NCBI RefSeq assembly: GCF_900103285.1
Contig: NZ_FNGS01000006.1
Location: 1-64,000, forward strand
Length of the DNA stretch: 64,000 nt
Reading direction: 5' to 3'
From: Siphonobacter aquaeclarae
Lineage (GTDB): Bacteria; Bacteroidota; Bacteroidia; Cytophagales; Spirosomataceae
Under the pieces are notes generated by a model. The model ran no database searches and was not told the origin of the DNA. It saw only the letters and a program-made list of their open reading frames with translations. Positions 67-59,084 of this stretch are shown in pieces; positions within the stretch are counted from its first letter, which is position 1, and every line of letters begins with the position of its first letter. The position numbers were made by a program, and so were the translations under genes.

Positions 67-186
67 TTTTTGTTTTTCTCACAGACTTCACAGAATACAC
101 AGAAAAAAGACAGGGTGCGCGCGAATACGTCCCTGTCTCCCGAACAAAAAAAAGTCTGTGTTTTCTGTGAAGTCTGTGAGAAAAAC
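67..186. repeat. Palindromic element A1 (TCTGTG family)
   Basis: Two inverted arms built from TCTGTG units (left about 71-103, right about 153-186) flank a core with its own hairpin, GACAGGG (109-115) with CCCTGTC (131-137). The left arm read in reverse complement matches the right arm with about one mismatch over 23 nt. The right arm ends one base before the dapF stop codon at 187-189. Three more copies occur at 1062, 42073 and 53592. The first 66 bases of the window hold nothing I can recognise. Confidence 0.85.
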
Positions 187-966
187 CTACACCTCCACCG
201 ACCCTTCAAACACCCTCTCAGCCGGACCGGTCAGGTAAATATCTTCAAAGGTACCGTTGCCTTTGTCGGAGAAACTGACTTCCAGGTTGCCGCCGAGTAC
301 CTTCACTTTCACCGGACTTTGCAGGCCGAGTTTCAGGTGGCTGACGAGTGCGCTGGCCGTAACGCCGGTTCCGCAGGAATAGGTTTCGTCTTCCACACCC
401 CGCTCGTAGGTACGGACGAAAAGCGCATCGTCCCCGATTTGTTCGGCGAAGTTAACGTTGGTACCACCCCGCGCAACCCAGTCGTTGGCATACCGGATGG
501 CATATCCTTCGTCGTAAACATTGAAATCAGCCAGGTTGGGTTTGAATGCGACGACGTGCGGAGATCCCGTATTCATGAACTGGTACTCCGGAAACTCTTC
601 CAGACCATTGACGTTGCTCATTTTCAGGGAGATACGTTCAGGCGTGACAGAAGCTTCGTGTTCTCCGTCGACCGCGATGAAACGCGTTTCATCTCCGATT
701 ACTCCGAGGTCATGCGCGAAGCGAACGGTAGCCCGGCCACCGTTGCCGCACATCGAGCCCTCTCCGCCGTCGGCATTGAAGTACTTCATCCGGAAGTCAT
801 AGTCCGGGTCGTTCTGCAACAAGATAAGGCCATCGCCACCGATGCCGAAACGTCGGTCGCACAGTCTGGCAATCCGTTCTTTATCGATTGGAAAAGTACC
901 GGCTCTGTCGTCGATCATGACGAAGTCGTTGCCGGTGCCCTGGTATTTGAAAAAATGTACTTGCAT
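187..966 (-). CDS. dapF: Diaminopimelate epimerase
   Basis: Converts LL-diaminopimelate to meso-diaminopimelate in the cytosol for lysine and peptidoglycan synthesis. The 259-residue product has the normal family length. It opens with KYQGTGNDFV and carries both catalytic cysteines of this cofactor-independent racemase: C73 in MCGNGGR and C198 in YSCGTG. The open frame continues 17 codons upstream to 1017. I place the start at the ATG at 966 because homologues begin directly before HFFKYQGTGNDF. The gene stands alone, with palindromic elements just past its stop codon and upstream of its start. Identification is firm. Confidence 0.97.
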   Translation of the reverse strand: MQVHFFKYQGTGNDFVMIDDRAGTFPIDKERIARLCDRRFGIGGDGLILLQNDPDYDFRMKYFNADGGEGSMCGNGGRATVRFAHDLGVIGDETRFIAVDGEHEASVTPERISLKMSNVNGLEEFPEYQFMNTGSPHVVAFKPNLADFNVYDEGYAIRYANDWVARGGTNVNFAEQIGDDALFVRTYERGVEDETYSCGTGVTASALVSHLKLGLQSPVKVKVLGGNLEVSFSDKGNGTFEDIYLTGPAERVFEGSVEV

Positions 967-1061
967 GACAGATTGAAATAGCCGTTTGCCTGATGCCGTA
1001 ACAGTATGGGCGGGCAATAGATTCCATGAAAAAAGGTTGCCTTATCGCTCGGCGAACAGAC

Positions 1062-1150
1062 AACCTTCTGATTTATTTTTTCTGTGTATTCTGTGCTTTC
1101 TGTGAGACATTTATTTTTTCTCACAGAAAGCACAGAATACACAGAAGGTT
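1062..1150. repeat. Palindromic element A2 (TCTGTG family)
   Basis: A nearly perfect inverted repeat with arms at about 1062-1107 and 1115-1150. It has the same TCTGTGTATTCTGTG core as the other A elements and a short AT loop. The right arm runs into the TAA stop of the downstream minus-strand FAH gene (stop at 1150-1152). The element fills most of the gap between dapF and that gene, so it could end FAH transcription as a very stable hairpin. Confidence 0.88.
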
Positions 1151-2040
1151 TAGTTCGCGTCTTCCCACGAAACCGCCACCTGACGTTGCTCGCCGAGGCC
1201 CTCGATACCGAGTTCGACGACATCGCCGGGTTTGAGGTAAATCGGCGGGTTAAAGCCCAGGCCGACACCCGGAGGCGTACCCGTTGAAATGACGTCGCCC
1301 GGGAGCAGGGTCATGAACTGGCTCAGGTAGCTGATTACCTGGGGTACTTTGAAAATCATCTGGGCGGTCGTGGAATTCTGGAAGGTCTTTCCGTTGACTT
1401 TCAACCACATCGGGAGGCTGTCGACGTCGTCAACTTCATCCGGCGTCACCAGGTAGGGGCCGAGCGGGCCGAAGGTATCGCAACCCTTGCCTTTGTCCCA
1501 CTGACCACCGCGTTCGAGTTGGAATTCGCGCTCGGAGTAGTCGTTCATGACGGCGTATCCGGCGATGTAATCCACCGCCTGCTCTTCCGTTACATAGCTG
1601 CATTCCGCACCGATGACAACGGCCAGTTCCACTTCCCAGTCAGTTTTGACGGAGTTGCGGGGAATGACGACGTCATCGTTCGGACCGCAGAGAGCGGTCG
1701 TAGCCTTGAAGAAAATGATCGGCTCCTGGGGAATCGGGGCGCCCGTTTCTTTGGCATGATCGGCGTAGTTGAGGCCGATGCAAATGATTTTGGACGGACG
1801 TGCCACGCAGGATGCGTACTGGATGTCTTCGTCGAGCGGCTCCAGTTCGGAGGTGCCGTATTGCTCGAGGTAGTCTTCCAGGACGGCAATTCCTTCTTCC
1901 TCAAAGAAGTACTCGTCGAGATCGTACGCGCCGGTTTCTTCTCCGAAAGCTTCGAAAAATCCCTCCAGGCTGTACGGTTTTCCGTCGATCAGGATACCGG
2001 GAATGACGTCTTCTTCAGTGACGTAACGAAAGAGTTTCAT
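1150..2040 (-). CDS. Fumarylacetoacetate hydrolase family protein, probable 2,4-diketo-3-deoxy-L-fuconate hydrolase
   Basis: A 296-residue FAH-superfamily enzyme. The N-terminal cap covers about residues 1-75. The catalytic domain begins at GLNYADHAKE (89-98) and has acidic metal ligands E137 and E139 (DWEVEL) and D167 (MND). The stretch from YSEREFQLERGGQW to ISTGTPPGVG resembles the 2-keto-acid hydrolases of sugar-acid pathways. In Xanthomonas the related enzyme splits 2,4-diketo-3-deoxy-L-fuconate to pyruvate and lactate. A fucosidase and an SDR nearby support that substrate, but this is inference. The ATG at 2040 (MKLFRYV) is preferred to the longer frame at 2073 because a TACCTTTG promoter box (2071-2078) overlaps the upstream extension. 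Confidence 0.85.
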   Translation of the reverse strand: MKLFRYVTEEDVIPGILIDGKPYSLEGFFEAFGEETGAYDLDEYFFEEEGIAVLEDYLEQYGTSELEPLDEDIQYASCVARPSKIICIGLNYADHAKETGAPIPQEPIIFFKATTALCGPNDDVVIPRNSVKTDWEVELAVVIGAECSYVTEEQAVDYIAGYAVMNDYSEREFQLERGGQWDKGKGCDTFGPLGPYLVTPDEVDDVDSLPMWLKVNGKTFQNSTTAQMIFKVPQVISYLSQFMTLLPGDVISTGTPPGVGLGFNPPIYLKPGDVVELGIEGLGEQRQVAVSWEDAN

Positions 2041-2070
2041 GGATCGTTGTGATATGACTGGTTCCGGAGG

Positions 2071-2078
2071 CAAAGGTA
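2071..2078 (-). promoter_or_regulatory. Bacteroidota -7 box (TACCTTTG) of the FAH gene
   Basis: On the minus strand the bases read TACCTTTG, an exact match to the Bacteroidota -7 consensus TAnnTTTG, 30 bases before the FAH start. No clear -33 TTTG is visible. It lies in the 74-base gap after the fucosidase stop, so the FAH gene probably has its own promoter. Confidence 0.55.
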
Positions 2079-2114
2079 GGGTTTCTTCCTCCGGCGGTCG
2101 GTTTTTTATTTCAA

Positions 2115-3440: not shown

Positions 3441-3441
3441 T

Positions 3442-4098: not shown

Positions 4099-4120
4099 CG
4101 AAATGAGGGATTTTGAGGTA

Positions 4121-4151: not shown

Positions 4152-4157
4152 CGGAAA

Positions 4158-5708: not shown

Positions 5709-6012
5709 AGTTTTCGGGTTTTCGGTTTTCAGTCTTCGGTTTTCAGTTTTTGGTTGGATGGAAGCGAAGCGATACCGGGAACAGGTTGTTTGTGGCTGTT
5801 GCAGACGAAATCGCAAGGTCGAATCGGCCAGCTTGCCGTGCGTAGCTCCACTACGGTAGCATTCGCTACGCACGGCAGGCAAGCCGATCTGGTCTTGCTA
5901 TCCCCCCGCTTCAACTCCCCGCTTTTTCCGTTCTTTGCACTCCCCTCCAACCCCAACTGAAAACCGAAGACAGAAAACCGAAAACTGAAAACAGTAAAAC
6001 CGAAAACCGATT
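5709..6012. repeat. Long palindromic element C1 (TTTTCAGTT family) in a divergent intergenic region
   Basis: The left arm (about 5709-5755) is a run of GGTTTTCGGTTTTCAG-like words. The right arm (about 5957-6012) is its inverted counterpart built of AACTGAAAACCGA words. The 200-nt core holds another inverted repeat, 5823-5845 with 5866-5888, that contains the GTAGCGAATGCTAC word also found at 26729. Unlike the other elements it sits between divergent genes (FUSC and exonuclease), and its right arm ends 3 bases before the exonuclease ATG. I see no convincing promoter in this 422-base gap. Confidence 0.8.
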
Positions 6013-7975: not shown

Positions 7976-8055
7976 GAACTTCGGGGTAACTTCTCTATAT
8001 GCGGGGCATTTTTGATGGTTAAGTGAAAGTTTTTAGCGGAAAAGGAATAAGCTGT

Positions 8056-8162
8056 CCGCTCTAAGCGGTAAGCTATAGGCGGTAAACGGGCAAAGAGCGG
8101 CTGCCGTTTTCCAACGCTGCATCGCGTCTGAGGCTTACAGCTTATGGCCTATAGCCTAATGC
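8056..8162. repeat. Palindromic element B1 (TAAGCTATAGGC family)
   Basis: The left arm (about 8056-8089) contains TAAGCTATAGGC. The right arm (about 8130-8162) contains the inverted GCTTACAGCTTATGG and CCTATAGCC words. It lies upstream of pgk and ends six bases before the -33 box of the riboswitch promoter, so it forms the boundary between two divergent transcription units. Related copies are at 10948, 38436 and 49758. Confidence 0.8.
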
Positions 8163-8167
8163 AGCAG

Positions 8168-8199: not shown

Positions 8200-8224
8200 C
8201 CCCACTTTGTAATGCCCCGTCAAT

Positions 8225-8448
8225 CGGATGGCCGGTTTCGTTGGCCCAGCTTCGGGCCGGACGAATGAAAAAGGAATCGTGTGAAAATCACGAGCAGACG
8301 TGCTACTGTAAGTACCCGTTCTCACGGACAGGTCACGGTTCACAAGCCCATTGTTTCGTCAGAAATGAGAAGGGGAACCGCTGATGGTACAAGCCAGGAG
8401 ACTTGCCGACCTTCTCAATGACCATGTCCTCACGACTAGGACCTGGTT
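8225..8448 (+). ncRNA. Cobalamin riboswitch upstream of metE
   Basis: The aptamer core is recognisable from GGAATCGTGTGAAAATCACG (about 8271-8290) through GACGTGCTACTGTAA to the B12 box AGCCAGGAGACTTGCC (8392-8407). A 10-bp hairpin with loop CACGACT follows at 8421-8447 and may be the P13/kissing-loop arm. Cobalamin binding is expected to shut off metE, because the B12-dependent enzyme MetH then suffices. Between it and the metE ATG lie about 170 nt with a CGTCTG/CAGACG hairpin and a weak GGGTG/CACCCTTTT hairpin (8576-8604), a candidate regulated terminator. The exact 5' boundary is approximate. Confidence 0.9.
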
Positions 8449-8616: not shown

Positions 8617-10953
8617 ATGTTTACGCACAACCTGGGCTACCCGCGCATCGGTAGCCGCCGCGAACTCAAAAAAGCCTGTGAGTCGTTCTGGGCCGGAACC
8701 CTGACCAAAGACGAACTCCTCTGGGAAACCCGCCAGCTCCGCCGCCGCCACTGGCAGTTGCAACGCGAAGCCGGGATAGACCTCATTCCCTCCAACGACT
8801 TTTCGCTTTACGATCACGTCCTGGATACCGCGCTGATGGTCGGCGCGGTACCCGAACGGTACCACGTTCTGGCCGACGGAAAAGCAGGCCGCGAACTTGA
8901 AATCTACTTCGCCATGGCCCGTGGCGTGCAGCGACCCGGTGCAGACATCCCGGCGATGGAGATGACAAAATGGTTTGATACCAACTACCACTACATTGTT
9001 CCCGAATTCCGGAAAGACCAGACTTTCCGACGGTATTCCGATACCGTTATTCATGCCTTCGAAGACGCCCTTCAAATGGGTATTACGACGAAGCCCGTCG
9101 TACTCGGACCCGTTTCCTTTCTGTTGCTCGGAAAGGAACGCGAAGCGGGTTTTGACCGGATCGACCTGCTCGACCGCCTCCTGCCCGTCTATGCCGATAT
9201 CCTCCGGGAACTGACCGCCCGCGGCGCGGGCTGGATACAAATCGACGAGCCCTGCCTGGTCCTGGATCTCACCGGAAAACAGCAGGAAGCCTACCGGAAA
9301 GCCTATGCCTGGCTCCGGAAAGAGGTACCCGGCGCGCAACTCATACTGGCGACATACTTTGATTCATTGGGTGAAAACCGGTCGCTGGCCGCAGCGCTAC
9401 CGGTAGATGCCCTGCATATTGATGTCGTTCGCGGACGGAAGGATTGGGCAGAAATCCTGACCGACGATACCTTCCTATCTGCCGGACGGATACTCTCCCT
9501 CGGTGTGGTCAACGGGCGGAATATCTGGAAAAACCAGTATGCCGACTCGCTGGCGCTTATCGCACAGGCAGAAGCCGTACTCGGGCGCGATCGCCTTTGG
9601 ATTGCCCCTTCGTGCTCGTTACTGCACGTCCCGTGCGACCTCGATCTGGAGACCGACGAAATCAGCCTGCCTGCCGAAATCCGCGACGGTATGGCCTTCG
9701 CAAAACAAAAACTGACCGAACTGGTACACCTGAAAATACTCGCTTTCGGGGAGCCTTCGGCGTCAGGAAAGGCCATTCTCGCAGAAAATGAAGCGGCCGT
9801 TCGACGCCGTCAGACCTCTTCCCTGATTCATCGTCCACATGTAAAAGAACGGATGGAAGCGATACAGGAAGCTGATTTTGAGCGGATTAGTGTATTCGCA
9901 GAACGGCAGTCCATACAACAGGCCTGGTTGCAGCTTCCGGCTTTCCCGACGACGACAATCGGTTCTTTCCCCCAAACCCCGGATATCCGGCAACTGCGGG
10001 CATCGTTTCGAAAAGGAACGCTTTCGGCGGAAGGATATGAATCCGGTTTGGAAAAGGAAATTGCCGAAGCCATCCGTCGTCAGGAAGCTATCGGTCTGGA
10101 CGTACTCGTTCACGGAGAAGCCGAGCGAAACGACATGGTTGAGTACTTCGGAGAGCAACTTTCCGGCTATGCCTTCACCCGGAACGGCTGGGTACAGAGC
10201 TATGGCAGCCGGTGCGTGAAGCCGCCGGTTATTTACGGAGACATCGAACGGCCGGAACCGATGACTGTTCGCTGGGCGACCTATGCCCAGTCGCTCACCG
10301 ATAAACCTGTAAAAGGTATGCTCACCGGGCCGGTGACGATTCTGCAATGGAGTTTTGTGCGGGACGACCAGCCCCGCCGCGATACGGCCTTTCAGATTGC
10401 GCTGGCCATCCGTGACGAAGTGACAGACCTCGAAAAAGCAGGTATCCGTGTTATCCAGATCGATGAGCCCGCCATCCGGGAGGGACTTCCGCTGCGACAG
10501 GCCGACCGGGCGGAGTACCTGCGCTGGTCGGTAGATGCCTTCCGCCTCAGCACGGCGGGCGTTGCCGATGAGACCCAGATCCATACCCATATGTGCTACT
10601 CTGAATTTAACGACATACTCGAAGCAATTGCGCGGATGGATGCTGACGTGATTACCATCGAAACGTCCCGCTCGCAAATGGAGCTGCTCGACGCGTTTTC
10701 GGAGTTTGCCTACCCGAATGAAATCGGCCCCGGTGTTTACGATATTCACTCGCCGCGGGTTCCCTCTGAAGACGAAATGGTACAGCTTCTCCACAAAGCA
10801 CTCAACCATATCCCGGCCCGGAACCTCTGGGTCAACCCCGACTGCGGCCTGAAAACCCGCCGCTGGGAAGAAACGGAGGCCGCGCTGCGGAATATGGTAG
10901 GGGCTGCGAGGCGGCTAAGGCCCGTAATTAGTCAGGAAGTAACCGGGCTCTAA
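8617..10953 (+). CDS. metE: Cobalamin-independent methionine synthase
   Basis: Transfers the methyl group of methyltetrahydrofolate triglutamate directly to homocysteine, in the cytosol. At 778 residues it is full length. The N-terminal domain starts with [16 protein letters not shown]. The C-terminal domain carries [10 protein letters not shown], the IDEPAIREG segment, and the zinc ligands in [11 protein letters not shown] and NPDCGLKTR (C743). The ATG at 8617 ([12 protein letters not shown]) is chosen rather than the frame opening at 8548, because homologues begin here. Expression should be repressed by cobalamin through the riboswitch. Its stop codon is embedded in palindromic element B2. 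Confidence 0.98.
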
Positions 10954-11030
10954 GCTTTAGGCTGTAAGCTTTATGCCAAGGCAGTACCCCTGTCCGGGGC
11001 TTAAAGCTTACGGCTTAGTGCCTAAAGCCG
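10948..11030. repeat. Palindromic element B2 (TAAGCTTTAGGC family)
   Basis: The left arm TAAGCTTTAGGCTGTAAGC begins at 10951, so the metE stop codon TAA is its first three bases. The right arm runs from about 10996 to 11029 with GGCTTAAAGCTTACGG and CCTAAAGCC. The element occupies nearly the whole gap to the FAN1-like gene. A CAACTTTG box at 11055-11062 is only 4 bases from the next ATG. Confidence 0.85.
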
Positions 11031-11066
11031 CTTTTCTTTCCGGCGGGTAAGTCCCAACTTTGCTTC

Positions 11067-23406: not shown

Positions 23407-25059
23407 ATGAATCGGTACAAACTCAGTTTCCTTCTTCTTCTCTCCCCTCTGTTGCTCCTGGCGCAAGCCAAGCCGAAAACCGCCTCCGGGCCTGCTGCCC
23501 GCCCGAAACTCGTCGTCGGGATTGTCGTCGACCAGATGCGCTATGACTTCCTCTTCCGCTATGCTGCGAAGTACGGAAACGGCGGGTTCAAACGTCTCCT
23601 CGGCGAAGGGTACAACTGTGCCTACACGCATTACAACTACATGCCGACGATCACCGCACCGGGCCATACCTGTGTGTTTACGGGTTCTATTCCGGCGATT
23701 CACGGGATTGTCGGGAACGACTGGTTTGACCGCAGCCTCGGCCGCGAAGTGTACTGTACCGAAGATACCCTGGCGGAAGCTGCCGGTGGCAGCGGTTCAA
23801 AGGCTGGTAAAATGTCTCCCCGGAACGTACTCGCCACGACCATTACGGATCAGCTGAAGATCGCAACCAACTTTAAGTCGAAAGTCATCGGTGTATCCCA
23901 GAAAGACCGCGGCGCGATTATCCCCGCCGGTCACTCTGCCGACGCGGCCTACTGGTTCGACTCCCGCGACGGAAGCTGGATCACCAGTACCTTCTACATG
24001 AAAGACGTACCGCAGTGGGTGAAGGATTTCAACGCGAAAAAACTCGCCAACAAGTACCTCGAAAAACCGTGGACAACGCTGTTGCCCATCGAACAATATA
24101 CCGAAAGTACGGCCGACGACATGCCGTGGGAAGTACCCATCCCGGGCGAAAAGAAGCCGGTTTTCCCGCATGAAGTAAGCGGTACCTTCCAGGGCTTCTA
24201 CGAAAACTTCCGGAAGACGCCGTTCGGCAATACCATCACAAAGGATTTCGCCATCGAAACCCTGAAAAACGAAAAACTGGGCAAGGGAACGGAAACGGAC
24301 TTCCTGACGGTGAGCTTCTCGTCCACCGACTACGTAGGCCATAGCTTCGGCCCGAACTCCATCGAAACCGAAGATACCTACCTCCGCCTGGATCAGGATA
24401 TTGAAGCGCTTCTGAGCTTCCTTGATACCTGGGTAGGGAAGCAAAATGTACTCGTTTTCCTCTCTGCCGACCACGGTGTAGCCGATGTATGGGGTTTCTC
24501 CCGCGAGCATAACATCGCCGCCGGTTCCATCCAGAAAGTAACCAACGCAGCCAGTGCGGCCCTGACGGCTGCATACGGCGAGGCCGACTGGATTCAGTAC
24601 TTCGGTAACTATCAGATTTACCTGAACCCGGAAGTTCTGAAAGCCAAAAACCTGACGGTCAGCCAGGTATACCCGAAAGTGAAAGAAGCCGTCATGAAAG
24701 TACCGGGAGTTGCCAACGTACTCAATCTGCAGGATTTCGCTTCGCTGCAAATCAATGACAATCAGGCCTATTTCGTGAAAAACGGCTACCACCTGAAGCG
24801 GGGCGGCGACCTGATGGTCGTAGCCGAACCCGGCTGGCAGGAAGGTTATGTCCGCGCCGGTACTGGCCACGGCACGCCTAACAACTACGATTCACACGTG
24901 CCCTGTCTGTTTTACGGCTGGAAAATTCCGCACGGCAAAACCGGCGCTTCTACGCACGTAACCGACATCGCTGCCACCGTCGCCTACCTCCTCGACATCC
25001 TCGAACCGAGCGGCTGCGTGGGTAAGCCGGTGGAGGACCTGGTGTCGCAGGTTAGGTAG
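23407..25059 (+). CDS. pafA: Secreted PafA-type alkaline phosphatase
   Basis: A periplasmic phosphomonoesterase of the Bacteroidota-typical PafA (SPAP) group, 550 residues with signal peptide MNRYKLSFLLLLSPLLLLAQ. Metal and catalytic residues fall where expected: D42 in VDQMRYD, nucleophile T83 in PTITAPGH, and K166 and R168 in SQKDRG. Metal ligands follow in FSSTDYVGHSFGP and SADHGVADV, and GTGHGTP comes late. Replacement of Ser by Thr at the nucleophile is characteristic of PafA, which in studied species is made independently of phosphate status. The start at 23407 is set by the signal peptide; the frame opens earlier. Confidence 0.94.
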   Translation: MNRYKLSFLLLLSPLLLLAQAKPKTASGPAARPKLVVGIVVDQMRYDFLFRYAAKYGNGGFKRLLGEGYNCAYTHYNYMPTITAPGHTCVFTGSIPAIHGIVGNDWFDRSLGREVYCTEDTLAEAAGGSGSKAGKMSPRNVLATTITDQLKIATNFKSKVIGVSQKDRGAIIPAGHSADAAYWFDSRDGSWITSTFYMKDVPQWVKDFNAKKLANKYLEKPWTTLLPIEQYTESTADDMPWEVPIPGEKKPVFPHEVSGTFQGFYENFRKTPFGNTITKDFAIETLKNEKLGKGTETDFLTVSFSSTDYVGHSFGPNSIETEDTYLRLDQDIEALLSFLDTWVGKQNVLVFLSADHGVADVWGFSREHNIAAGSIQKVTNAASAALTAAYGEADWIQYFGNYQIYLNPEVLKAKNLTVSQVYPKVKEAVMKVPGVANVLNLQDFASLQINDNQAYFVKNGYHLKRGGDLMVVAEPGWQEGYVRAGTGHGTPNNYDSHVPCLFYGWKIPHGKTGASTHVTDIAATVAYLLDILEPSGCVGKPVEDLVSQVR

Positions 25060-25280
25060 TGTTTGGCGTTTTGAGTTTAGTGTTTTGAGTTAGGGGCTGG
25101 CAGATTTGTCGGCCCCTTTTGCGCAATAGCCGGTGGTTGAGCTCCGTCGAAACCAGCGCGGCGGGTGTGGTAGGGATGAAAATAGAACGGCTGCCGGAGG
25201 TTTCGACGGAGCTCAACCACCGGAGAGAGAGATTCGCCAAAGTCATCCCTCAGAACTCTAAACCCTAAACTCTAAACCGC
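25060..25280. repeat. Nested palindromic element C4/D4 between convergent genes
   Basis: The outer arms are degenerate TTTTGAGTTTAG words (25060-25096 and 25251-25278). The inner D arms carry GGTGGTTGAGCT plus CGTCGAAACC (25131-25153) and the inverted copy (25200-25222). The pafA terminator lies between the outer and inner left arms. The element starts directly after the pafA stop and ends 6 bases from the stop of the convergent lipocalin-like gene, filling the gap. Confidence 0.82.
25093..25120 (+). terminator. Intrinsic terminator after pafA
   Basis: GGGGC (25093-25097) can pair with GCCCC (25112-25116), followed by TTTT. It lies 33 bases after the pafA stop, inside element C4/D4. The loop is large, about 14 nt, so efficiency is uncertain. 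Confidence 0.6.
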
Positions 25281-25285
25281 CTTCC

Positions 25286-26607: not shown

Positions 26608-26966
26608 CAGTTTATCGTTTTCAGTTTGCTGTTTTCAGTTGGGTTACCCAGCGCAGCCGCATTTACCGGGGTGGTTGAGCTCCGTCGAAACCACCCGGCG
26701 CAGGAGCAGGCACAAACCTCTCTTCCCGCCGTCCGTAGCATCCGCTACGGACTTTTTTTAATTGGCAGGCTGAGCCTGCCTCAGCCGTTTTTCCATTTTA
26801 CCGGATTGCAGGCAGCCTTTTATCAAATATTCAAAGATACTTTTCAATATACTCCTGCGCCGGGTGGTTTCGACAGAGCTCAACCACCCCGGTCGCGACG
26901 GCTGCACTGGGTAACCCAACTGTAAACAGAAAACTGTAAACAAAAAACCGCAAACCGAAAACTGCC
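26608..26966. repeat. Long nested palindromic element C2/D2
   Basis: The arms, about 26618-26706 and 26853-26940, are highly complementary over some 75 nt. From outside in they carry TTTTCAGTT words, GGGTTACCCAG plus GCAGCCG, then the D module (GGTGGTTGAGCT, CGTCGAAACC) and GGCGCAGGAG. Each D module is itself a GGTGGTT/AACCACC hairpin. The 146-nt core holds a perfect 9-bp hairpin (26731-26752, GTCCGTAGC/GCTACGGAC) with seven T, plus GGCAGGC/GCCTGCC at 26764. It abuts the oxygenase stop at 26967 and fills the 364-base gap; no gene is seen here. Confidence 0.88.
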
Positions 26967-28603: not shown

Positions 28604-28836
28604 CTGTTTTCGGTTTGCAGTTTTTGGTTTTCAGTTGGGGACGGGGATGGACCAATGGGCGTCGCAAAGGCTAAGCGCTCTCCCCGGTGGTTGAGCTACG
28701 TCGAAACCTCCGGCAGCCACCCATTTTTATTCCCAGCGTATTCGCCACGCTGGTTTCGACGTAGCTCAACCACCGGCTATGGCAGCCGGCCCGCCTTGCC
28801 CCCAACTGAAAACCAAAAACTGAAAACCGAAAACAG
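28604..28836. repeat. Nested palindromic element C3/D3
   Basis: The outer arms (28605-28640 and 28800-28835) are complementary over 36 nt with about two mismatches and consist of TTTTCGGTTTGCAG/TTTTCAGTT words. The inner D arms (28682-28711 and 28749-28776) carry GGTGGTTGAGCTACG and its inverse. The element ends 8 bases from the stop of the Gfo/Idh gene and occupies most of the 318 bases before ada, with no gene inside. Confidence 0.88.
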
Positions 28837-38435: not shown

Positions 38436-38560
38436 AGTAAGCGATAAGCTGTAGGCTTTAAGCTATAGGCAGAGGAAGCCGAGCACAGTCGGTTTCCGGA
38501 CAACGGGCCGTATCCCTGCCTACAGCTTAAAGCCTACAGCTTATCGCTCAAAGCCTGCCA
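38436..38560. repeat. Palindromic element B3 (TAAGCTATAGGC family)
   Basis: The left arm (38436-38473) reads AAGCGATAAGCTGTAGGC plus TTTAAGCTATAGGC. The right arm (38516-38559) is its inverse and also contains AAAGCCTACAGCTTATCG. It stops about five bases from the dgkA stop codon. Just upstream, at 38411-38434, is a G-rich tract (G5-A-G5-TTGGTT-G7). Confidence 0.87.
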
Positions 38561-38564: not shown

Positions 38565-38957
38565 TTACAGCTTAAATCCCTCCTCCAGCCATTCCTCCCA
38601 CGGCAGGTATGCCTGAAAAACCATGATTCCGATTACCAGCGCGAAAATAGCGGCAACAAGGACCGCGCCGGCGGCGAGGTCCTTGATTTCACCGGCGATC
38701 TTCCGGTATTCGGGAGATACCATGTCCACCATCTTTTCAATGGCCGTATTGATGGCTTCTGTTACCCAGACGAGGGTGATAGCCAGAAGGAGATTGAACC
38801 AGTCCCGGAAGTCGATCTGCAGGAAGATACCGAGCAGAATGACGAGTACGGTGGATACCAGGTGGATCCGGGCATTGTTTTCCGAATAAACCATGACCTT
38901 CAGCCCGTGCAGGGCATAGCGGACGCTTCGGAAAAACTTAGGTACGTTGATCGGCAT
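38565..38957 (-). CDS. dgkA: DgkA-family lipid kinase
   Basis: A 130-residue integral membrane kinase of the DgkA family. It has an amphipathic N-terminal helix (KFFRSVRYALHGLKVMVYSENNARIH), then three membrane segments and the signature EAINTAIEKMVDMVSPEY with KDLAAGAVL. Relatives phosphorylate diacylglycerol or undecaprenol. In Bacteroidota the preferred lipid is unsettled. The start codon touches the stop of the DUF1361 gene (38958), so it is the last gene of a five-gene operon. Confidence 0.92.
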   Translation of the reverse strand: MPINVPKFFRSVRYALHGLKVMVYSENNARIHLVSTVLVILLGIFLQIDFRDWFNLLLAITLVWVTEAINTAIEKMVDMVSPEYRKIAGEIKDLAAGAVLVAAIFALVIGIMVFQAYLPWEEWLEEGFKL

Positions 38958-42072: not shown

Positions 42073-42148
42073 TTTTTCTGTGTATTCTGTGCTTTCTGTG
42101 AGAAACTGATTTTTAATTTTTCTCACAGAAAGCACAGAACACACAGAA
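42073..42148. repeat. Palindromic element A3 (TCTGTG family)
   Basis: Arms 42073-42105 and 42117-42148 are inverted copies of the A module with TCTGTGTATTCTGTG and GCTTTCTGTGAGA, one mismatch, 11-base AT loop. Between it and the DUF2723 stop at 42210 lies a separate strong terminator. It is also upstream of the membrane gene at 41338-41955. Confidence 0.88.
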
Positions 42149-42153: not shown

Positions 42154-42195
42154 AAAGACAGGGCTGTTTCCCGTGAGAGAAACAGCCCTGTCTTT
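42154..42195 (-). terminator. Strong intrinsic terminator of the DUF2723 gene
   Basis: A 17-bp perfect stem (AAAGACAGGGCTGTTTC, 42154-42170, with its complement 42179-42195), 8-base loop. The minus strand continues with a T run. It lies 14 bases after the DUF2723 stop. The GACAGGG/CCCTGTC core also occurs in the loop of element A1. Confidence 0.88.
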
Positions 42196-42209: not shown

Positions 42210-45200
42210 CTACTCGGCGCCTGAGCCATCGTCGAGGCGGTTGCCCAGACGTTGGTAGTGCTTGTTGAAGATCGCTTCGTATTTCGAGGCTTCCGCGGTG
42301 AGCTTGGCGTCCTGCAGCTGCTGAACAACGAGGTTCATTTCATACAGGTTCACGCGGATATCCTGGCTGTCGCCATTGGTTTCGATGTAGTAGTTCAGGT
42401 TTTCGTCGCACCGGTTCATGATGGTTTGGGCCATCTGGAGCGCGCGGGCTTTTTCGCCGACTGAAATCAGGGGGCCGATGAAGCTCACTGAAATCTGATC
42501 GTAGGGAATCGCCTTATCCGGAATGACGTCGAGGCAGCGGTTGAGAACAGCCTTCGCCTTGTCCAGCTTGCCTTCCTGAATGAGTTGCGTAGCGAGACGG
42601 TAGAACGCGATCCGCGCGGATACCACGGGAGCGCCGCGGTAGGTTTCGTCGTAATACACCTTCGGGTTGTTCATTTCGCGCCAGGCCATTTTGTTCATCA
42701 TCTTGTCGAACATGACATCGGAATTCACGAAGCCGTCACGGGCGCCGGAAATCTTGAACGGCATGAGGCGATAGGCATATCCTTCCAGCTGGAGGAACTC
42801 TTTCAGGCCCAGGTAGCTCTGGGAGCCGAGGGTCGAAGCGAAGTAAATCGGCCGCTCGAAGTTGCTGTGCGCGATGATATCCAACTGGATCAATTCCGGC
42901 TTGGTGATGTCGTTCTGGCCAAACGTCCAGGTCAGGCGATCCGTCAGCAGGGGTTCAAACTGGTTCGATACAAAGCCACCCTTCTTAATCCGCTCGGGGT
43001 CAAGCTTGAGGGAAAAGACCGAAGACGGCAGCACGTTGAGTTGCCCCATCGTCGTCTGTACCTGAATAGCCGGGTTGTTTTGCTTGACGAGCTGGATATA
43101 ATCCTGAAGATCAATGCCTTCCTTTACATTCGGGTTTTCGGAGAAGGGAATCTGGTCGTTGATGCCGGTCCGGAAGTTGTCCATTTCGAGGGAAATAGGC
43201 AGCGGCGCTGATTCATAAGTCTTCCGCTTCATTTGCTCAATGTACCAGTCGGTTCCGAGGAGCGAGAGGTTACAGACGCGTACGTCGGTCCGGAAGCCTT
43301 CCACTTCCTGCACATACCAGAGGGGGAAGGTATCGTTGTCCCCGCCGGTAAACAGAATGGCGTTCGGCGCGCAGGAGCTCAGCATATTCTTCGCGAAATC
43401 GACAGAATGCCAGCGGTTGGAGCGGTCGTGGTTGTCCCAGCTCTTGGCGCCCATCATCACCGGAATACCGATGGACAGAAGCGTTGCAAGGGAACCGGTA
43501 GCCACGGCCTTGTTTTTCAATACGCGACCCAGCAATTCCTGTAGTCCAAGCACGCCCAGACCGCACCAGAGGGCGAAGAAATAGAAGGAACCTACGTAGA
43601 TATAATCCCGTTCGCGGGGCTCTGTCGGCGGTGAGTTGAGGAATACCACCAGCGCGAGGCCCGTCATAATGAAGCTGATAGCCACCACCAGCCAGTCTTT
43701 TTCCCGACGGAAAAACTGAAGCATGAAGCCGATCAGACCGAGAATGAGCGGCAGGAAATAGAAGTTATCATGCGCCTTGTTATTCTTGATGCTCTCCGGC
43801 AGGGGAGCCGATTTGCCGGGGCGTGGCGCCCAATCGGCCCATTCGTAGTCACTCTCCCGTCCTGCAAAGTTCCACATGAAGTACCGGGCATACATAAAGC
43901 CCATTTGGTACGAGAACATGAAACTCATGTTCTGGCCGAATGTGGGCTTGAGGTAACGGGACTGATCCGACGGATCACGCGCCAGACCTACCAGCGACGC
44001 ATAGCGATCGGGGTGGCCGGGCTGTTGCGAGTACATACGCGGCAGGAAGCTTTGCTGGTCTTTTTCGAAGACATAGTCCGGCTTGTAATCGTAGATTTTG
44101 TACTTGCCGCCGTCGATTTTGTACATCGGATCACCTTTTTTGACGTCGACCACGCGTGATGTAAACAGCGGTCCGTACGTCAGCGAACGGCTTCCGTATT
44201 GCTCCCGCTTCAGGTAGCTGAGGTAGTTGATCGCGTCAGACGGGTTGTTTTCGTTGATCGGCGGGTTGAAGTTCGACCGTACCAGCGCCTGCGTATAGGA
44301 AATGTATCCGATCAGCACGAAGGTCAGCGAAAGCAGCGCAGTGCTCAGAATGACCTTCTGCTTTTTCTGCGCGTACCAGACGCCGTAGCTTACCACCGCG
44401 AAGAAGACAATCACAAAGAAAAGAACGCCGGAATTCAGCGGCAGGCCGAAGCTGTTTACAAACAGTTTCTCGAAGAAGAACGCCATACTGGGCAGCCCCG
44501 GAATAATACCGGAATTGATGATCACGAGAATCACCAGGCCGATAAAAAGGGCTACGCCGCCACCGATGAGGGACGGCTTTTCACTTTTCTTGAAGTAGTA
44601 GATAAGGGCCAGCGCAGGCAGCGTTACCAGGTTCAGCAAGTGAATACCAATGGAAAGCCCCGTCAGGTAGGCGATGAAAATGATCCAGCGGTTGGCCGCA
44701 GCTTCGTCTTCGATCAGTTCCCAGCGGAACGCCGCCCAGAAAACCAGCGCCGTGAAGAAGGAAGACATGGCGTATACCTCGGCTTCCACCGCCGAAAACC
44801 AGAAGGTGTCGCTGAAGGTGTAGATCAGGGAACCGACGATCCCGGATCCGAAAATACCGATGAGTTCTCCGGTAGAAAGCTCTGAAACCGCTTTGTTAAC
44901 GATTTTCCGTCCCAGCATGGTCAGCGTCCAGAACATGAAGAGGATCGTCATACCGCTGGCCAGTACCGACATCATGTTGACCCAGAAAGCGACCCGGGTG
45001 ACGTCGCTGCCGGCCAGCAGCGAAAACATACGGCCGAGGAGGAGGAAGATGGGCGCCCCGGGGGGGTGGGGGACCTGAAGTTTAAATGAACAGGCGATGA
45101 ACTCGCCGCAATCCCAGAAACTGGCGGTTTGTTCGACTGTCGAGGCGTAGGTAAAAAAAGCAATCGCAAAGACACTCCAACCCAGTAGGTTATTGATCCG

Positions 45201-45215
45201 CTGGTAATTTTTCAT
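42210..45215 (-). CDS. DUF2723 membrane glycosyltransferase (GT117-like)
   Basis: A 1001-residue protein. The DUF2723 domain forms the N-terminal half: WSVFAIAFFTYASTVEQTASFWDCGEFIACSFKLQVPHPPGAP (about 14-57) has the conserved aspartate-cysteine-glycine-glutamate motif, followed by about 10-12 helices. The C-terminal third (from about 650) is soluble, with TPR-like helices near 880-990. DUF2723 proteins have a GT-C fold like protein O-mannosyltransferases and act in Bacteroidota protein O-glycosylation. It is a single-gene unit, with terminators on both sides. Confidence 0.92.
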   Translation of the reverse strand: MKNYQRINNLLGWSVFAIAFFTYASTVEQTASFWDCGEFIACSFKLQVPHPPGAPIFLLLGRMFSLLAGSDVTRVAFWVNMMSVLASGMTILFMFWTLTMLGRKIVNKAVSELSTGELIGIFGSGIVGSLIYTFSDTFWFSAVEAEVYAMSSFFTALVFWAAFRWELIEDEAAANRWIIFIAYLTGLSIGIHLLNLVTLPALALIYYFKKSEKPSLIGGGVALFIGLVILVIINSGIIPGLPSMAFFFEKLFVNSFGLPLNSGVLFFVIVFFAVVSYGVWYAQKKQKVILSTALLSLTFVLIGYISYTQALVRSNFNPPINENNPSDAINYLSYLKREQYGSRSLTYGPLFTSRVVDVKKGDPMYKIDGGKYKIYDYKPDYVFEKDQQSFLPRMYSQQPGHPDRYASLVGLARDPSDQSRYLKPTFGQNMSFMFSYQMGFMYARYFMWNFAGRESDYEWADWAPRPGKSAPLPESIKNNKAHDNFYFLPLILGLIGFMLQFFRREKDWLVVAISFIMTGLALVVFLNSPPTEPRERDYIYVGSFYFFALWCGLGVLGLQELLGRVLKNKAVATGSLATLLSIGIPVMMGAKSWDNHDRSNRWHSVDFAKNMLSSCAPNAILFTGGDNDTFPLWYVQEVEGFRTDVRVCNLSLLGTDWYIEQMKRKTYESAPLPISLEMDNFRTGINDQIPFSENPNVKEGIDLQDYIQLVKQNNPAIQVQTTMGQLNVLPSSVFSLKLDPERIKKGGFVSNQFEPLLTDRLTWTFGQNDITKPELIQLDIIAHSNFERPIYFASTLGSQSYLGLKEFLQLEGYAYRLMPFKISGARDGFVNSDVMFDKMMNKMAWREMNNPKVYYDETYRGAPVVSARIAFYRLATQLIQEGKLDKAKAVLNRCLDVIPDKAIPYDQISVSFIGPLISVGEKARALQMAQTIMNRCDENLNYYIETNGDSQDIRVNLYEMNLVVQQLQDAKLTAEASKYEAIFNKHYQRLGNRLDDGSGAE

Positions 45216-49752: not shown

Positions 49753-49757
49753 CGAGG

Positions 49758-49913
49758 GAGGTTGGCAATAGGCTTTAAGCTATAGGCAGTAAGCCATAGC
49801 GCGGACCCAGGCATGTATAAAAGCAGAAGGCGATAGGTGGAACGCGAGCGTTTCGTATCTATCGCCTTCTGCTTATTGCTTAAAGCCTATAGCTTAAAGC
49901 CTATTGCTAACCT
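49758..49913. repeat. Palindromic element B4 (TAAGCTATAGGC family) between convergent genes
   Basis: The outer arms (49758-49800 and 49873-49913) carry GGCAATAGGCTTTAAGC and its inverse. An inner pair, AGCAGAAGGCGATAG (49822-49836) and CTATCGCCTTCTGCT, flanks a short unique core. The element spans the whole gap between two stop codons (49752 and 49916). Confidence 0.88.
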
Positions 49914-49915
49914 CG

Positions 49916-50233
49916 CTACTGCGCCGCCGCCCCCTTCCGCATATCCAGTTTCTGAATCAGGTCGGCCGAGAGGGCTTCGGAGTAGGTTCCGTAGGCCATC
50001 ATCAGGACGCCCTTGTGCCCGCCTTTGGACTCGATGGCATATACCACCGACATATCGGACGGGTTGGATTCCCCTTCAAACCGGTAGGCTTCTACTACTT
50101 CAAAGTCTTCCGGATGGAGGATAAGGCCAAGCGTAGCCAGGCTGAGCGCGCCGTTCTCGACGCTGAAGTTTTCGTTGTATCCCCGGGCGGCCAGATCGGC
50201 GAGTGCCTCGGTTTCCGTCATGTATTCGTCCAT
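49916..50233 (-). CDS. Small phosphoribosylpyrophosphate-synthetase-like protein
   Basis: A 105-residue protein of a small Bacteroidota family annotated in databases as phosphoribosylpyrophosphate synthetase-like, from memory. It has none of the catalytic motifs of a full PRPP synthetase (about 310 residues), so that name is not informative. The N-terminal part ALADLAARGYNENFS is followed by a compact alpha/beta fold to MMAYGTYSEALSADLIQKLD. The ATG at 50233 (MDEYMTETEAL) is preferred because the frame's upstream 116 codons look non-coding. Function unknown. Confidence 0.75.
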   Translation of the reverse strand: MDEYMTETEALADLAARGYNENFSVENGALSLATLGLILHPEDFEVVEAYRFEGESNPSDMSVVYAIESKGGHKGVLMMAYGTYSEALSADLIQKLDMRKGAAAQ

Positions 50234-53537: not shown

Positions 53538-53562
53538 GATCGTTTCGTTTGCTTTCATTACC

Positions 53563-53598
53563 GGTCGGCCCGCAGTTATCGCGGGTCGACCTTTTTTT
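53563..53598 (+). terminator. Intrinsic terminator after the FeoB-associated gene
   Basis: GGTCGGCCCGC (53563-53573) pairs with GCGGGTCGACC (53581-53591) through one G-T wobble, loop AGTTATC, followed by seven T. It ends the rsmI-to-Feo run and abuts element A4. Confidence 0.88.
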
Positions 53599-53671
53599 GT
53601 CTGTGTATTCTGTGAAGTCTGTGAGAAAAATAAAAATTGCTCACAGACTTCACAGAATACACAGACAAAAT
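53592..53671. repeat. Palindromic element A4 (TCTGTG family)
   Basis: Arms 53596-53630 and 53640-53670 are perfect inverted copies carrying TCTGTGTATTCTGTG and AAGTCTGTGAG, with a loop of about 9 AT-rich bases. The right arm ends three bases before the stop codon of the minus-strand FMN reductase gene, and the T tract of the adjacent terminator overlaps the left arm. Confidence 0.9.
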
Positions 53672-53673
53672 TT

Positions 53674-57132: not shown

Positions 57133-57203
57133 AATTCACGTCCGAATCAAACGAAAAACTAATTTTACAACGTTATTCCCCTGTTTTGAACCAATAGCCA
57201 GAT

Positions 57204-57707
57204 ATGAAAAAAAGTTTGCTTGCGCTGCTCGTCCTGTTCGCCTTTGTAACCGGTTGCAAAAAGGACGACGACAAAAATCCCTCAGCCGACACCAAAACCC
57301 TGCTGACCAAGACCTGGATCGCTTCGAAAGTGGCCGGTAATGCCAGCGGTATTTCCATTACCGTTTACACCCGGGGCGCGTCGACCAACCTGTACGACAA
57401 GTTCAAGAACTTCTCCGTATCGCTGAAATCCGATGGCACCTATTCCAGCAATGACACCGAAGGAACGACGACGACCGGTACCTGGGCGTTGTCTTCGGAC
57501 AACAAGACCCTGACCCTGACGGCTTCCAACGGCGCCAAGGTGGTGTATACGGTCAATTCGGTTTCTTCGACGGCTGCTTCTTTCAAGTATACCATCGACT
57601 TGAACGCGCAGTCGACGTTCGTTACGGCGATCGTACAACTGGCTGCTGCTCAGGGTGTAACCGTGAAGACCGGGGATTACCTGACGTTTGATGTCATTCC
57701 TCAGTAA
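57204..57707 (+). CDS. Lipocalin-like lipoprotein
   Basis: A 167-residue lipoprotein with signal peptide II: MKKSLLALLVLFAFVTGCKK, lipidated Cys at about 18. An acidic KKDDD stretch right after the Cys fits Bacteroidota surface-export signals, so it may lie on the cell surface. The rest is a small beta-barrel rich in Thr/Ser, with SDGTYSSNDTEGTTTTGTWAL and KTLTLTASNGAKVVYTV repeats, as in lipocalin-like DUFs. Function is unknown. A terminator follows 19 bases after the stop. Confidence 0.8.
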   Translation: MKKSLLALLVLFAFVTGCKKDDDKNPSADTKTLLTKTWIASKVAGNASGISITVYTRGASTNLYDKFKNFSVSLKSDGTYSSNDTEGTTTTGTWALSSDNKTLTLTASNGAKVVYTVNSVSSTAASFKYTIDLNAQSTFVTAIVQLAAAQGVTVKTGDYLTFDVIPQ

Positions 57708-57725
57708 GAAATTTTTAGCAGGGAG

Positions 57726-57750
57726 AAAGGCGGGGAGACCCGCCTTTTTT
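57726..57750 (+). terminator. Intrinsic terminator after the lipoprotein gene
   Basis: A 9-bp stem AAAGGCGGG (57726-57734) with CCCGCCTTT (57739-57747), loop GAGA, runs into TTTTTT. It clearly ends the lipoprotein unit. Confidence 0.92.
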
Positions 57751-57879
57751 CGTTGGAAGAGGGTCGTCGGGGTAGTCGCACTATTTTTGGGAGCGACAAA
57801 TTTCCATCTTTGGACACCGGCGTATTCCATTCATTTTGACGACCTCCTGCGAAGCGGGAGTATTTCCAACCTGTAAGTC

Positions 57880-58863
57880 ATGGGAACCCTCAAATCTGTT
57901 GTCCACCTTTCCCTCGATGGATTCGTTGCCCGGCCCGGCGGCGATCTCAGTGCTTTTCCGTCCGGAGCTGAAAACCTGGCGTTTGTCAACGAACTGACTG
58001 ATACGGCGGATGTCGGATTGTTCGGCCGGAATTCCTTCGAACTCCTTGATACACACTGGCCCGGCGCGAAGGATCTTCCGGGTGCTACTCAGGAAGAAAT
58101 TAGCTATTCCAACTGGTATAACCGGGTGCGGAAAGTGGTGGTAACGGATTCCGGTTCTCCGGAAGGCACGGAGACCTTCCCGAGGGATTGCGCCGCACAC
58201 GTCCGTCAGCTGAAGGCTTCGACGGCAGGGGATATTCTGTTGTTCGGCAGCCCTAGTGTCACCCGCTACCTTTTGAGTAAAAGCTTGATCGATGAGCTGT
58301 GGATATTCATCAATCCGGTGTTGTTTGGAGAGGGAATTCCGCTGTTTCCGGCGTCTTCCGAAACGACGCGGCTGGCGCTGACGATGCTCAAAAAGTTTCC
58401 AAATGGAGAGATTGTGATGAATTACAGGCTGTTACCTGTCGTGGCAAAAGAGACATTGCGGGCGGAAGTAACGGTGCGGCAACCGATCGATGTAGCCTGG
58501 CTGGCATGGACCAGCCCGGAGGCGATCCGGGAGTGGAACATTCCGTTCGACCACTGGCATACGCCCCGTGCCGAGAACGACCTTCGTCCGGGAGGCGCAT
58601 TTTTTTACCGCATGGAAACGAAAGACGGCAGTGAGGGTTTTGACTACCGCGGCCGGTACGACCGGATTGAGTTTCAGGAGTTGATTACCCTCACGCTCGC
58701 TGACGGACGGAAATCGTTCATCCGTTTTGCCTCCGATGGCAAGCGCACCATCGTGACCGAACAGTTTGAACCAGAAGCGGATACCCCGCCGGAACTGCAA
58801 AAGGAATTTTGCCAGAAGGTACTGGAGCGGTTCAAGGCATATGTGGAGGGGAAAGGGATATAG
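57880..58863 (+). CDS. Fused RibD_C (dihydrofolate-reductase-like) and SRPBCC (AHSA1) domain protein
   Basis: A 327-residue two-domain protein. Residues 1-185 resemble the RibD C-terminal/dihydrofolate reductase-like fold: KSVVHLSLDGFVARPGGDLS, VGLFGRNSFELL, DILLFGSPSVTRYLLSKSLIDELWIFINPVLFGEGIPLF. Residues about 190-327 form an AHSA1-type SRPBCC ligand-binding domain: VRQPIDVAWLAWTSPEAIREWN, LRPGGAFFYRMETKDGS and GYDRIEF-like repeats. Each domain is common alone; the fusion is unusual. Function unknown. The ATG at 57880 is directly followed by homology to the first domain. Confidence 0.85.
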   Translation: MGTLKSVVHLSLDGFVARPGGDLSAFPSGAENLAFVNELTDTADVGLFGRNSFELLDTHWPGAKDLPGATQEEISYSNWYNRVRKVVVTDSGSPEGTETFPRDCAAHVRQLKASTAGDILLFGSPSVTRYLLSKSLIDELWIFINPVLFGEGIPLFPASSETTRLALTMLKKFPNGEIVMNYRLLPVVAKETLRAEVTVRQPIDVAWLAWTSPEAIREWNIPFDHWHTPRAENDLRPGGAFFYRMETKDGSEGFDYRGRYDRIEFQELITLTLADGRKSFIRFASDGKRTIVTEQFEPEADTPPELQKEFCQKVLERFKAYVEGKGI

Positions 58864-58872
58864 TATCGGCAG

Positions 58873-59084
58873 ATGACCCCGGAGGGGTCGAAGGTTATTA
58901 ACCCTGGGTAGATACCCGGGGATCTGCCCGAAGCTGGTGCCGAAGCAGGTACCCGAGCTGGAATCTCCGGGCTGGAATCTCCGAGCTGGAATCCCTGGGC
59001 TGGAATCCCTGGGCTGGAATCCCCGAGCTGGAATCCCCGGGCGCAGCCCGGGGTTACTGGCGTTTGACCCCTTCGGGGTCGGTG
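58873..59084. repeat. GACCCC/GGGGTC element E with an internal 14-bp tandem array
   Basis: Two inverted arms, about 58873-58921 (GACCCC-GGA-GGGGTC hairpin then ACCCTGGGTAGATACCCGGGG) and 59043-59084 (CCCGGGG, then GACCCC-TTC-GGGGTC), flank the tandem array at 58955-59038. It starts 10 bases after the stop of the fusion gene. The pattern resembles the other palindromic elements, with a different module. Confidence 0.75.
58955..59038. repeat. Six tandem copies of a 14-bp unit
   Basis: Six contiguous units of the form GRGCTGGAATCYCY, each 14 nt with one to three changes, run from 58955 to 59038. They read through all three frames of a 14-nt period, so they are not a protein repeat. No spacers separate them, so this is not CRISPR. 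Confidence 0.88.

Follow-up and report, generated by a model that had tools for sequence, protein, structure and literature searches.

Dispersed intergenic tandem repeats with 7-nt units are familiar from heterocystous cyanobacteria as short tandemly repeated repetitive (STRR) sequences; inverted pairing and matched arms are, to our knowledge, not defining for them, and their units and phylum differ from those of the hairpins of Siphonobacter aquaeclarae (Bacteroidota) that we describe here. The nearest precedent is the P6b stem-loop of the Nostoc tRNA-Leu(UAA) intron, which PMC4476775 describes as heptanucleotide repeats of two classes, Class I TDNGATT and Class II NNTGAGT, similar in structure and repeatedly replacing one another. 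Our hairpins share with P6b, so described, the complementary arms of 7-nt units (families B, C, F and H, and not A, whose units have 9 nt), the variation in unit number and the replacement of one class by another. P6b, however, is one locus in a group I intron of tRNA-Leu, whereas ours lie between protein genes, at many intergenic loci at 3' ends and in a probable operon, and comprise no fewer than four families with 7-nt units and one with 9-nt units. The GGGNATC heptads of Xanthomonas and Nostoc (PMC4692102) are likewise 7-nt, intergenic and under-represented between divergent genes; that paper places them preferentially <50 bp from stop codons on the sense strand, mostly transcribed, and also upstream of genes on the antisense strand, but as direct G-rich arrays that form quadruplexes in vitro and not as hairpin arms. 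The TAACTGA heptamers of Beggiatoaceae, found also in five Bacteroidetes, are 7-nt repeats too but, in PMC4679880, direct rather than inverted and mostly just upstream of start codons. REPINs, which are inverted pairs of repetitive extragenic palindromic (REP) sequences moved by a REP-associated tyrosine transposase (RAYT), appear in PMC3116915 as extragenic inverted doublets predicted to fold as hairpins. Our families D and E fit that layout; unlike REPINs, families A, B, C, F and H have no single palindromic modules, no conserved doublet spacing and no cognate transposase. A literature search on the element sequences and hairpins, with limited coverage of subscription journals, returned no title describing these hairpins.

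The stretch analysed, which we call the window, is 64,000 nt long (contig NZ_FNGS01000006.1; C13:1-64000 in our numbering) and belongs to a genome of 6.19 Mb in 19 contigs (G000), which we compared with five congeners (G001-G005), making six species of Siphonobacter. Own-genome statistics cover 1.664 Mb of the 6.19 Mb (81 stretches, the window among them) unless we name an enlarged set of 2.054 Mb, which adds 20 stretches picked for A arms and is A-enriched. Genes were called with our own hexamer caller trained on the sample, which placed 59 genes in the window and missed the Y1 transposase gene in locus L045. Family labels are based on regular expressions and periods, and 10 of them were set by hand ahead of the placement counts. 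The original prediction, made from the letters of the window, had listed 13 palindromic places in families A to E, each with two inverted arms; families F and H were added in our analysis. All 13 places are present. An ungapped inverted-repeat scan with arms of at least 22 nt gives 33 arm pairs in 464 kb and 0 in a control of 100 kb of second-order Markov sequence, and a wider scan (arms of at least 20 nt) gives 136 pairs in 1.664 Mb. The palindromes of the window are genuine and far above chance, and the genome holds more than 100 hairpin-forming elements, mostly just 3' of genes. The ungapped scan lists the inverted arms of A1-A4, B3, B4, C1, C3, C4 and the nested D pairs, but leaves out B1, B2, E and the outer pair of C2.

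The arms of families A, B, C, F and H are arrays of short units. In lag profiles, four families peak at 7 (and 14), with values of 0.70 in B, 0.78 in C, 0.76 in F and 0.74 in H, whereas A peaks at 9 (0.71); neither D nor the other palindromes show a 7- or 9-nt lag peak. By a test in which arms were shuffled in register (p <= 0.01), 81 of 132 own-genome inverted repeats have periodic arms, 43 with period 7 and 38 with period 9, where 1.3 are expected; elsewhere, 4 of 27 are periodic in the congeners and, among loci of other Bacteroidota, 8 of 37. Read by eye, the units are [GT]TCTGTGNN in A, TARGCNN in B, RGTTTNC in C, about RGTTTAG or RGTTTTG in F and about GRGCANR in H, and the L124 locus (GGTTAATTGTTAATGG) looks like a possible further family. 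The earlier statement that the modules share no sequence thus misses part of the picture, since 7-nt units in tandem make up the arms of B, C and F, and 9-nt units those of A. The element that had been counted as the second C (25054-25285) belongs instead to the sister family F (GTTTTGAGTTTAG). Most elements also have a polarity: the arm on the 5' side reaches 60% G+T or more in 63 of 74 A inverted repeats and in 48 of 60 heptad ones, and stays at or below 40% G+T in 10 and 0 of them, respectively.

Several further repeats were seen along the way. There are long perfect one-arm arrays of more than 10 exact C units (G000:C7:225465-225548 and similar), as if slippage had expanded one arm, and very long near-perfect palindromes holding C units (L053:7657-8092 and L113:18069-18481, with arms of 158 nt at 0.99 and nested arms of 54 and 105 nt). 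Perfect palindromes without unit repeats lie at convergent gene ends (L093:8588-8645 and L104:16539-16612, with arms of 29 and 36 nt and loops of 0 and 2 nt). In other Bacteroidota loci (L139, L187, L214), unit-repeat hairpins with other words occur near stops, for example AATGTGNNN in Taibaiella soli (L214) and RATTRGT in Arcicella rosea (L187).

As had been expected, the modules occur mostly as inverted pairs across the genome. An opposite arm lies within 200 nt of 78 of the 86 A arms; six of the remaining 8 have a visibly mutated partner and two are cut by the end of a stretch. For arms of at least 2.5 exact units in the other families, an exact or relaxed opposite word is found within 400 nt in 36/38 C, 49/57 B, 7/9 F and, weakest, 16/25 H arms, against 2-5% at random points. 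The two arms of one element also resemble each other more than arms of different elements taken at their best offset, with mean identities of 0.98 against 0.87 in A, 0.91 against 0.83 in B, 0.93 against 0.86 in C, 0.91 against 0.81 in F and 0.92 against 0.81 in H. Because the scan's own floor of 0.82 raises the within-element values, a test on the variable triplets of A is cleaner. In 34 of the 49 A elements whose two sides each have three exact units, the arms agree in both triplets, where shuffled partners give 4.1 +/- 1.8 and a maximum of 11 in 5000. The A loops are AT-rich and mostly unique, though the arm words are common to many elements. A3 and L114:8653-8729 have near-identical arms and 18/19 of the loop in common within unrelated flanks, and therefore copying happens. 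The elements at L037:16492 and L041:5361 have a common loop and differing triplets, each set matched between its own arms. Other 10-mers common to A loops were discarded as evidence of copying, being AT-rich and by a rough estimate likely to match by chance; only these two cases were used. Around 28 A elements we found no target-site duplications of 6-9 nt, and the direct repeats at their edges measure 2 nt in two cases, 3 nt in one, 4 nt in three and 5 nt in one. Outside the A arms, complementarity is higher than with shuffled partners chiefly in the first position (0.82 against 0.57), and otherwise it about equals flank composition. The orientation of A loops relative to transcription (13 against 6 in tandem counts) is not significant.

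The unit-repeat elements sit mainly at the 3' ends of genes. The 37 placed A loci (2 more are unplaced) comprise 21 in convergent, 16 in tandem and 0 in divergent gaps, where gap sizes predict 3.8, 22.2 and 11.0; the corresponding convergent, tandem and divergent counts are 7, 5 and 0 for B, 7, 15 and 1 for C, 2, 2 and 1 for F, and 5, 3 and 0 for H. In the enlarged, partly A-chosen set, 4 of 59 placed heptad inverted repeats are divergent. Among 84 unit-repeat loci with a facing stop, 58 lie within 15 nt of it, against 40 +/- 3 (maximum 51 in 200 runs) when elements are re-placed at random in the same gaps, which bears out the predicted bias toward stop codons. No such effect is seen within B (7/12 against 6.8 expected) or F (2/4 against 2.0), because their gaps are nearly filled. 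Of 134 unit-repeat inverted repeats, 10 carry a stop codon at their own edge. In the window, 11 of the 13 elements had been assigned to stops; our gene calls give about 10 (A1, A2, A4, B2, B3 at 16 nt, B4, C2, C3, C4 and E), and they agree that B1 and C1 lie near starts. Mostly single modules, or modules without a bias toward stops, had been named as the outcome that would tell against the original prediction; since arms are mostly paired and lean to 3' ends, neither appeared, family H being the weakest case.

Among the genomes compared, family A is confined to its own. A 26-nt pattern of its arms matches G000 97 times forward and 100 times in reverse but none of the 87 other genomes of an order sample; a 24-nt version, with 101 forward and 105 reverse matches in G000, is absent from the five congeners. 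C units are found in all six Siphonobacter species (0 for the reversed control). A spread of C beyond the genus was considered on matches in 3 of 87 other genomes of the order sample (control 0).

How a slot changes can be read from the congeners G001 and G004, which are about 93-97% identical at the compared places. Ten C loci of G001 were fetched and 8 were resolved in G004 (5 by flank match among fetched G004 loci and 3 by search), leaving out L247 and L254; of 20 fetched G004 C loci that had no match, only L275 was followed to G001. At 6 of the 8 resolved loci C units are also present in G004, and at the other 2 the G004 gap holds an F hairpin, with both arms changed. Five of the eight are two-armed (L248, L249, L250, L252 and L255), and both family changes are among these. 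Unit numbers change as well: L251 and L276 differ by 42 nt, or 6 units, with more C units in G004, and the array at L275/L281 has about 10 against 1-2 units. The F element at L075/L280 differs in unit order and has an unaligned core (87 against 9 nt). At L250/L277, the first family change, the flanks are 0.97 and 0.96 identical and the slot 0.60 (maximum of 100 shuffles 0.58), and the arms are AGTTTTCGGTTTACAGTTTTCAGT and GTTTTGGGTTGGGTGTTTAGGGTTTTGAGT, each with its matching second arm; this is a difference of C against F to which we assign no direction, and it may stem from independent insertion. The second, L248/L288, is in a gap between genes that we take to be nuoE and nuoF, with C in G001 and F in G004, flanks of 0.94 and 0.95 and a slot of 0.61 (maximum of 200 shuffles 0.59). 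The same gap of G000 (L110:4809-4899) carries a C hairpin. Since C is thus present in two lineages, a change from C to F in the G004 lineage is the simpler history. Over the inner nuoE-nuoF slot, identity is 0.621 between G000 and G001, both with C (0.495 +/- 0.025 shuffled), 0.620 between G001 and G004 (0.545 +/- 0.031) and 0.583 between G000 and G004 (0.526 +/- 0.027). These data may fit rewriting in place, replacement by a copied hairpin, or independent insertion.

Within the window, RNA folding with shuffle z-scores covered A1-A4, B1-B4, C1, C2 and the first 103 nt of E. A1 (72..186; z -11.1) has inverted A arms of reverse polarity, with the A/C-rich arm first, around a terminator-like hairpin, and abuts the stop of the minus-strand gene 187-966. 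The other three A elements are 9-nt-unit hairpins. The minus-strand gene 1150-2040 has its stop 3 nt from A2 (1080..1146; z -13.5), whose 28 nt arms are perfect. A3 (42076..42148; z -12.2) and the stop of the minus-strand gene 42210-45215 are 61 nt apart, and within that interval is an intrinsic terminator-like hairpin on the minus strand (42154..42195), as had been described. A4 (53595..53670; z -12.6) has perfect 31 nt arms, is 3 nt from a minus-strand stop, and is immediately preceded by the T-tract of an intrinsic terminator-like hairpin on the plus strand (53563..53591). A G+C-rich stem followed by a T run, as in an intrinsic terminator, thus occurs in the core or neighbourhood of A1, A3 and A4. 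In family B, B1 (8046..8165) consists of degenerate inverted B units near a start, and its hairpin is not significant (z -1.57; 11 of 200 shuffles fold equally well). It lies just before, on the 5' side of, a cobalamin riboswitch (8216-8424; Rfam, 81.4 bits) upstream of the open reading frame 8617-10953; at the gathering threshold the riboswitch is the only Rfam match in the window. B2 (10944..11035; z -4.66) is a 7-nt-unit hairpin overlapping the stop of that gene, 8617-10953. B3 (38436..38550; z -11.2), with 7-nt units and 33 nt arms, is 16 nt from the stop of the minus-strand gene 38565-38957. B4 (49756..49917; -99.4 kcal/mol, z -11.7) is a 7-nt-unit hairpin with an inner core hairpin and fills a convergent stop-stop gap, which in four of the five congeners holds a single ordinary terminator-like hairpin and in G002 holds two and extra sequence.

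In C1 (5704..6009; z -10.4), which lies 8 nt before a start, arms of 7-nt units flank a long core that contains a palindrome of its own. The F-family heptad hairpin formerly counted as C2 (25054..25285; z -8.9 including its D pair) begins at the stop of 23407-25059 and encloses a D inverted doublet (25130..25223). C3 (26608..26962) has 7-nt-unit arms, a terminator-like core and nested D arms, which form an inverted doublet with a longer spacer (26665..26893), wider than the usual D spacing. C4 (28604..28836), a 7-nt-unit hairpin with 37 nt arms, is 7 nt from the stop of the minus-strand gene 28844-29950 and holds a D inverted doublet at 28684..28776. Some C cores carry a small palindrome of the form CGTAGCATNCGCTACG, at times with a T run and GGCAGGCTG-GCCTGCC; examples are at 5830-5900 and 26730-26790 in the window, in L087:13803-13966 and L053:7657-8092, and in L251. 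E (58875..59080; z -2.3 for its first 103 nt) is a REPIN-like pair with hairpins of the type GACCCC-N4-GGGGTC, and a 14-nt tandem array (about CTCCGGGCTGGAAT) lies within it at 58938-59049.

Families D and E had been counted as the same kind of element as the others, which does not hold: they are separate from A-C and come nearer to REPINs. The D element is an inverted doublet of fixed spacing and shows no bias toward stop codons. An inverted partner lies within 120 nt for 20 of 24 modules, all 9 listed pairs have start distances of 62-66 nt, and 3 of 6 separate D loci are divergent. At L048:14237-14597, D modules alternate in an array made up of several inverted pairs side by side. For E, a gap in G004 (L061:13480-13592) holds an E-like REPIN pair where G001 (L058 near 10571) has a single small hairpin; this is an insertion or deletion between sister species and gives the picture of a moving or deleting REPIN-like element.

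We put a probability of about one half on the reading that A, B, C, F and H are unit-repeat elements at 3' ends that fold into long hairpins as RNA or DNA, made by slippage, template switching and occasional copying and kept by selection on the RNA, with D and E separate. At the DNA level, units would multiply by slippage; a polymerase switching templates inside the hairpin would copy one arm onto the other, so that arms stay matched while words change; and whole hairpins would occasionally be copied or exchanged between slots. At the RNA level, the hairpin would lie at the mRNA 3' end or between cistrons, its pairing would be selected as it protects or bounds the transcript, and it would partly stand in for a terminator. 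Template switching between inverted arms is, in PMC8604942, a known route to arm homogenisation and spacer inversion, and in PMC8794818 it is proposed to create and maintain RNA hairpins. Template switching with slippage accounts for the matched arms, the change in unit number and the limited vocabulary; by themselves the two do not explain whole-family exchange or the spread of A, and copying between slots is therefore needed. The description of unrelated modules with one architecture holds for the common architecture of the hairpins, but A, B, C, F and H obey a unit-repeat grammar, and the choice offered between convergence and one inserting mechanism is partly dissolved by this common grammar, by the matched arms, by the mostly G/T-rich first arm and, further, by the finding that sister species can have different families in the same slot; families D and E stand apart.

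A number of observations weigh against this reading. The reading does not account for the G/T-rich-first polarity of the arms. Some arms are single or unmatched: among 129 B, C, F and H arms, 19 lack an opposite word in their vicinity (2 further H arms are near a stretch end), three of the ten G001 C loci (L251, L253 and L256) have no opposite C word, and in 15 of 49 A elements the arms differ in a triplet. Slots that we call different resemble each other somewhat above shuffles, so rewriting in place may be possible, and we infer template switching from patterns and papers, not from single observed events. Four-nt direct repeats at 3 of 28 A elements, against a simple expectation of 0.2 in flanks that are AT-rich, may hint at insertion. 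In the enlarged, partly A-chosen set, 4 of 71 placed A inverted repeats are divergent. In a phylum sample C patterns match 5 of the 147 other genomes and the reversed control matches 8, and since this is not above the control we make no claim of spread. On the RNA side, where the argument is drawn from sequence, 27 of 59 element-bearing convergent gaps still have a simple terminator, and strong termination between nuoE and nuoF is unlikely, the genes being probably co-transcribed. Finally, the excess of G-U mismatches described next may reflect cytosine deamination on the non-template strand during transcription and not selection, and the 3' placement could be the survival of neutral insertions where they are least harmful.

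These last two points belong to an alternative that we consider possible, though less probable, namely that the hairpins are neutral or selfish. Slippage, template switching and an occasional copying event would produce them, they would be tolerated for the most part at 3' ends, and no RNA function would be under selection. Template switching alone yields matched arms (PMC8794818, PMC8604942); a 3' bias follows from purifying selection elsewhere; the A loops are mostly unique among common arm words; and sense-strand G-U is possibly linked to transcription. Against this alternative, the stems themselves hint at a role in the transcript. On the gene-sense strand of 55 inverted repeats in tandem gaps, stem mismatches are G-U in 36 cases, A-C in 13 and other in 47 (p 0.0014); per element, 25 lean to G-U and 6 to A-C, with 24 ties (p 0.0009), and the lean is consistent in both gene orientations (19 to 9 and 17 to 4), whereas the controls are weaker (25 to 17 in convergent and 3 to 3 in divergent gaps). 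This bias suggests, without proving, that pairing matters after transcription. Simple terminators, scored in gaps of at least 25 nt, are also fewer where elements are present, in 27 of 59 convergent gaps with unit elements against 73 of 105 without an inverted repeat (Fisher p 0.004); gaps with other long palindromes have them in 12 of 13 cases and those with D or E only in 0 of 3. Moreover, the nuoE-nuoF gap holds a unit hairpin in all three species examined despite different sequences, two of these species being about 77% identical at gltP. That the elements are plain intrinsic terminators with long stems is very unlikely, even with their placement at 3' ends and in convergent gaps, the ordinary terminator-like hairpins in the B4 gap of the congeners and those in some cores (A1, B4), since the stems of A2-A4 have no following T-tract, A4 comes after a complete terminator, C and F hairpins stand between nuoE and nuoF, and terminator stems need no 7- or 9-nt periodicity or common vocabularies.

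It is likewise unlikely that the elements are several families of REPINs moved by a RAYT. They are inverted doublets, extragenic and in many copies, and a search with PF01797 (E <= 0.001) finds one Y1 gene in G000, with an E-type pair 8 nt after its stop. That gene scores 61.3 bits against the IS200/IS605 model NF033573 (cut-off 55) and 19.7 against the RAYT model NF047646 (cut-off 80), so that E is adjacent to a Y1 gene as a REPIN would be, but the gene falls below the curated RAYT model. E therefore fits an element moved by a Y1 transposase, probably the adjacent IS200-like one, and A-C do not need one; together D, with its fixed spacing, and E, with its difference between G004 and G001, would be separate REPIN-like elements. 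A cognate RAYT for D is wanting in G000, where PF01797 finds no second Y1 gene and the sole one adjoins E. For A, B, C, F and H, which are inverted doublets, the arms are unit arrays and not single palindromic REPs, the A loops are mostly unconserved, and the 2 kb of sequence read in the surroundings of the Y1 gene contain none of the five families; the same search (E <= 0.001) finds no Y1 gene in G001 and G005, both of which have C units. A RAYT as the mover of A-C, REPINs having been named earlier as the closest known analogue, was accordingly rejected as the main cause on the Y1 count, its neighbourhood, the C units of G001 and G005, and the RAYT score. The least probable reading is that of arrays of binding sites for proteins that read the units, the inverted arrangement being secondary. 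The TCTGTG words of A are conserved where loops vary, and one cold-shock protein per heptamer is discussed in PMC4679880, but the arms track each other beyond their common consensus, and a difference of family between sister-species slots would lose the site for a specific protein.

More tentatively, the elements may form a class set by grammar and not by sequence, in which a persistent hairpin slot at the 3' end has its arms rewritten jointly and its word family exchanged by a dedicated or strongly biased DNA-writing process of template switching and unit slippage, possibly with a specific polymerase or reverse transcriptase. Compensatory base pairs are standard evidence for functional RNA structure, and this genome tests whether template switching alone makes compensated stems. 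It also tests what keeps hairpins at gene ends, and the nuoE-nuoF gap, where the hairpin family varies between species, is a concrete locus for experiment.

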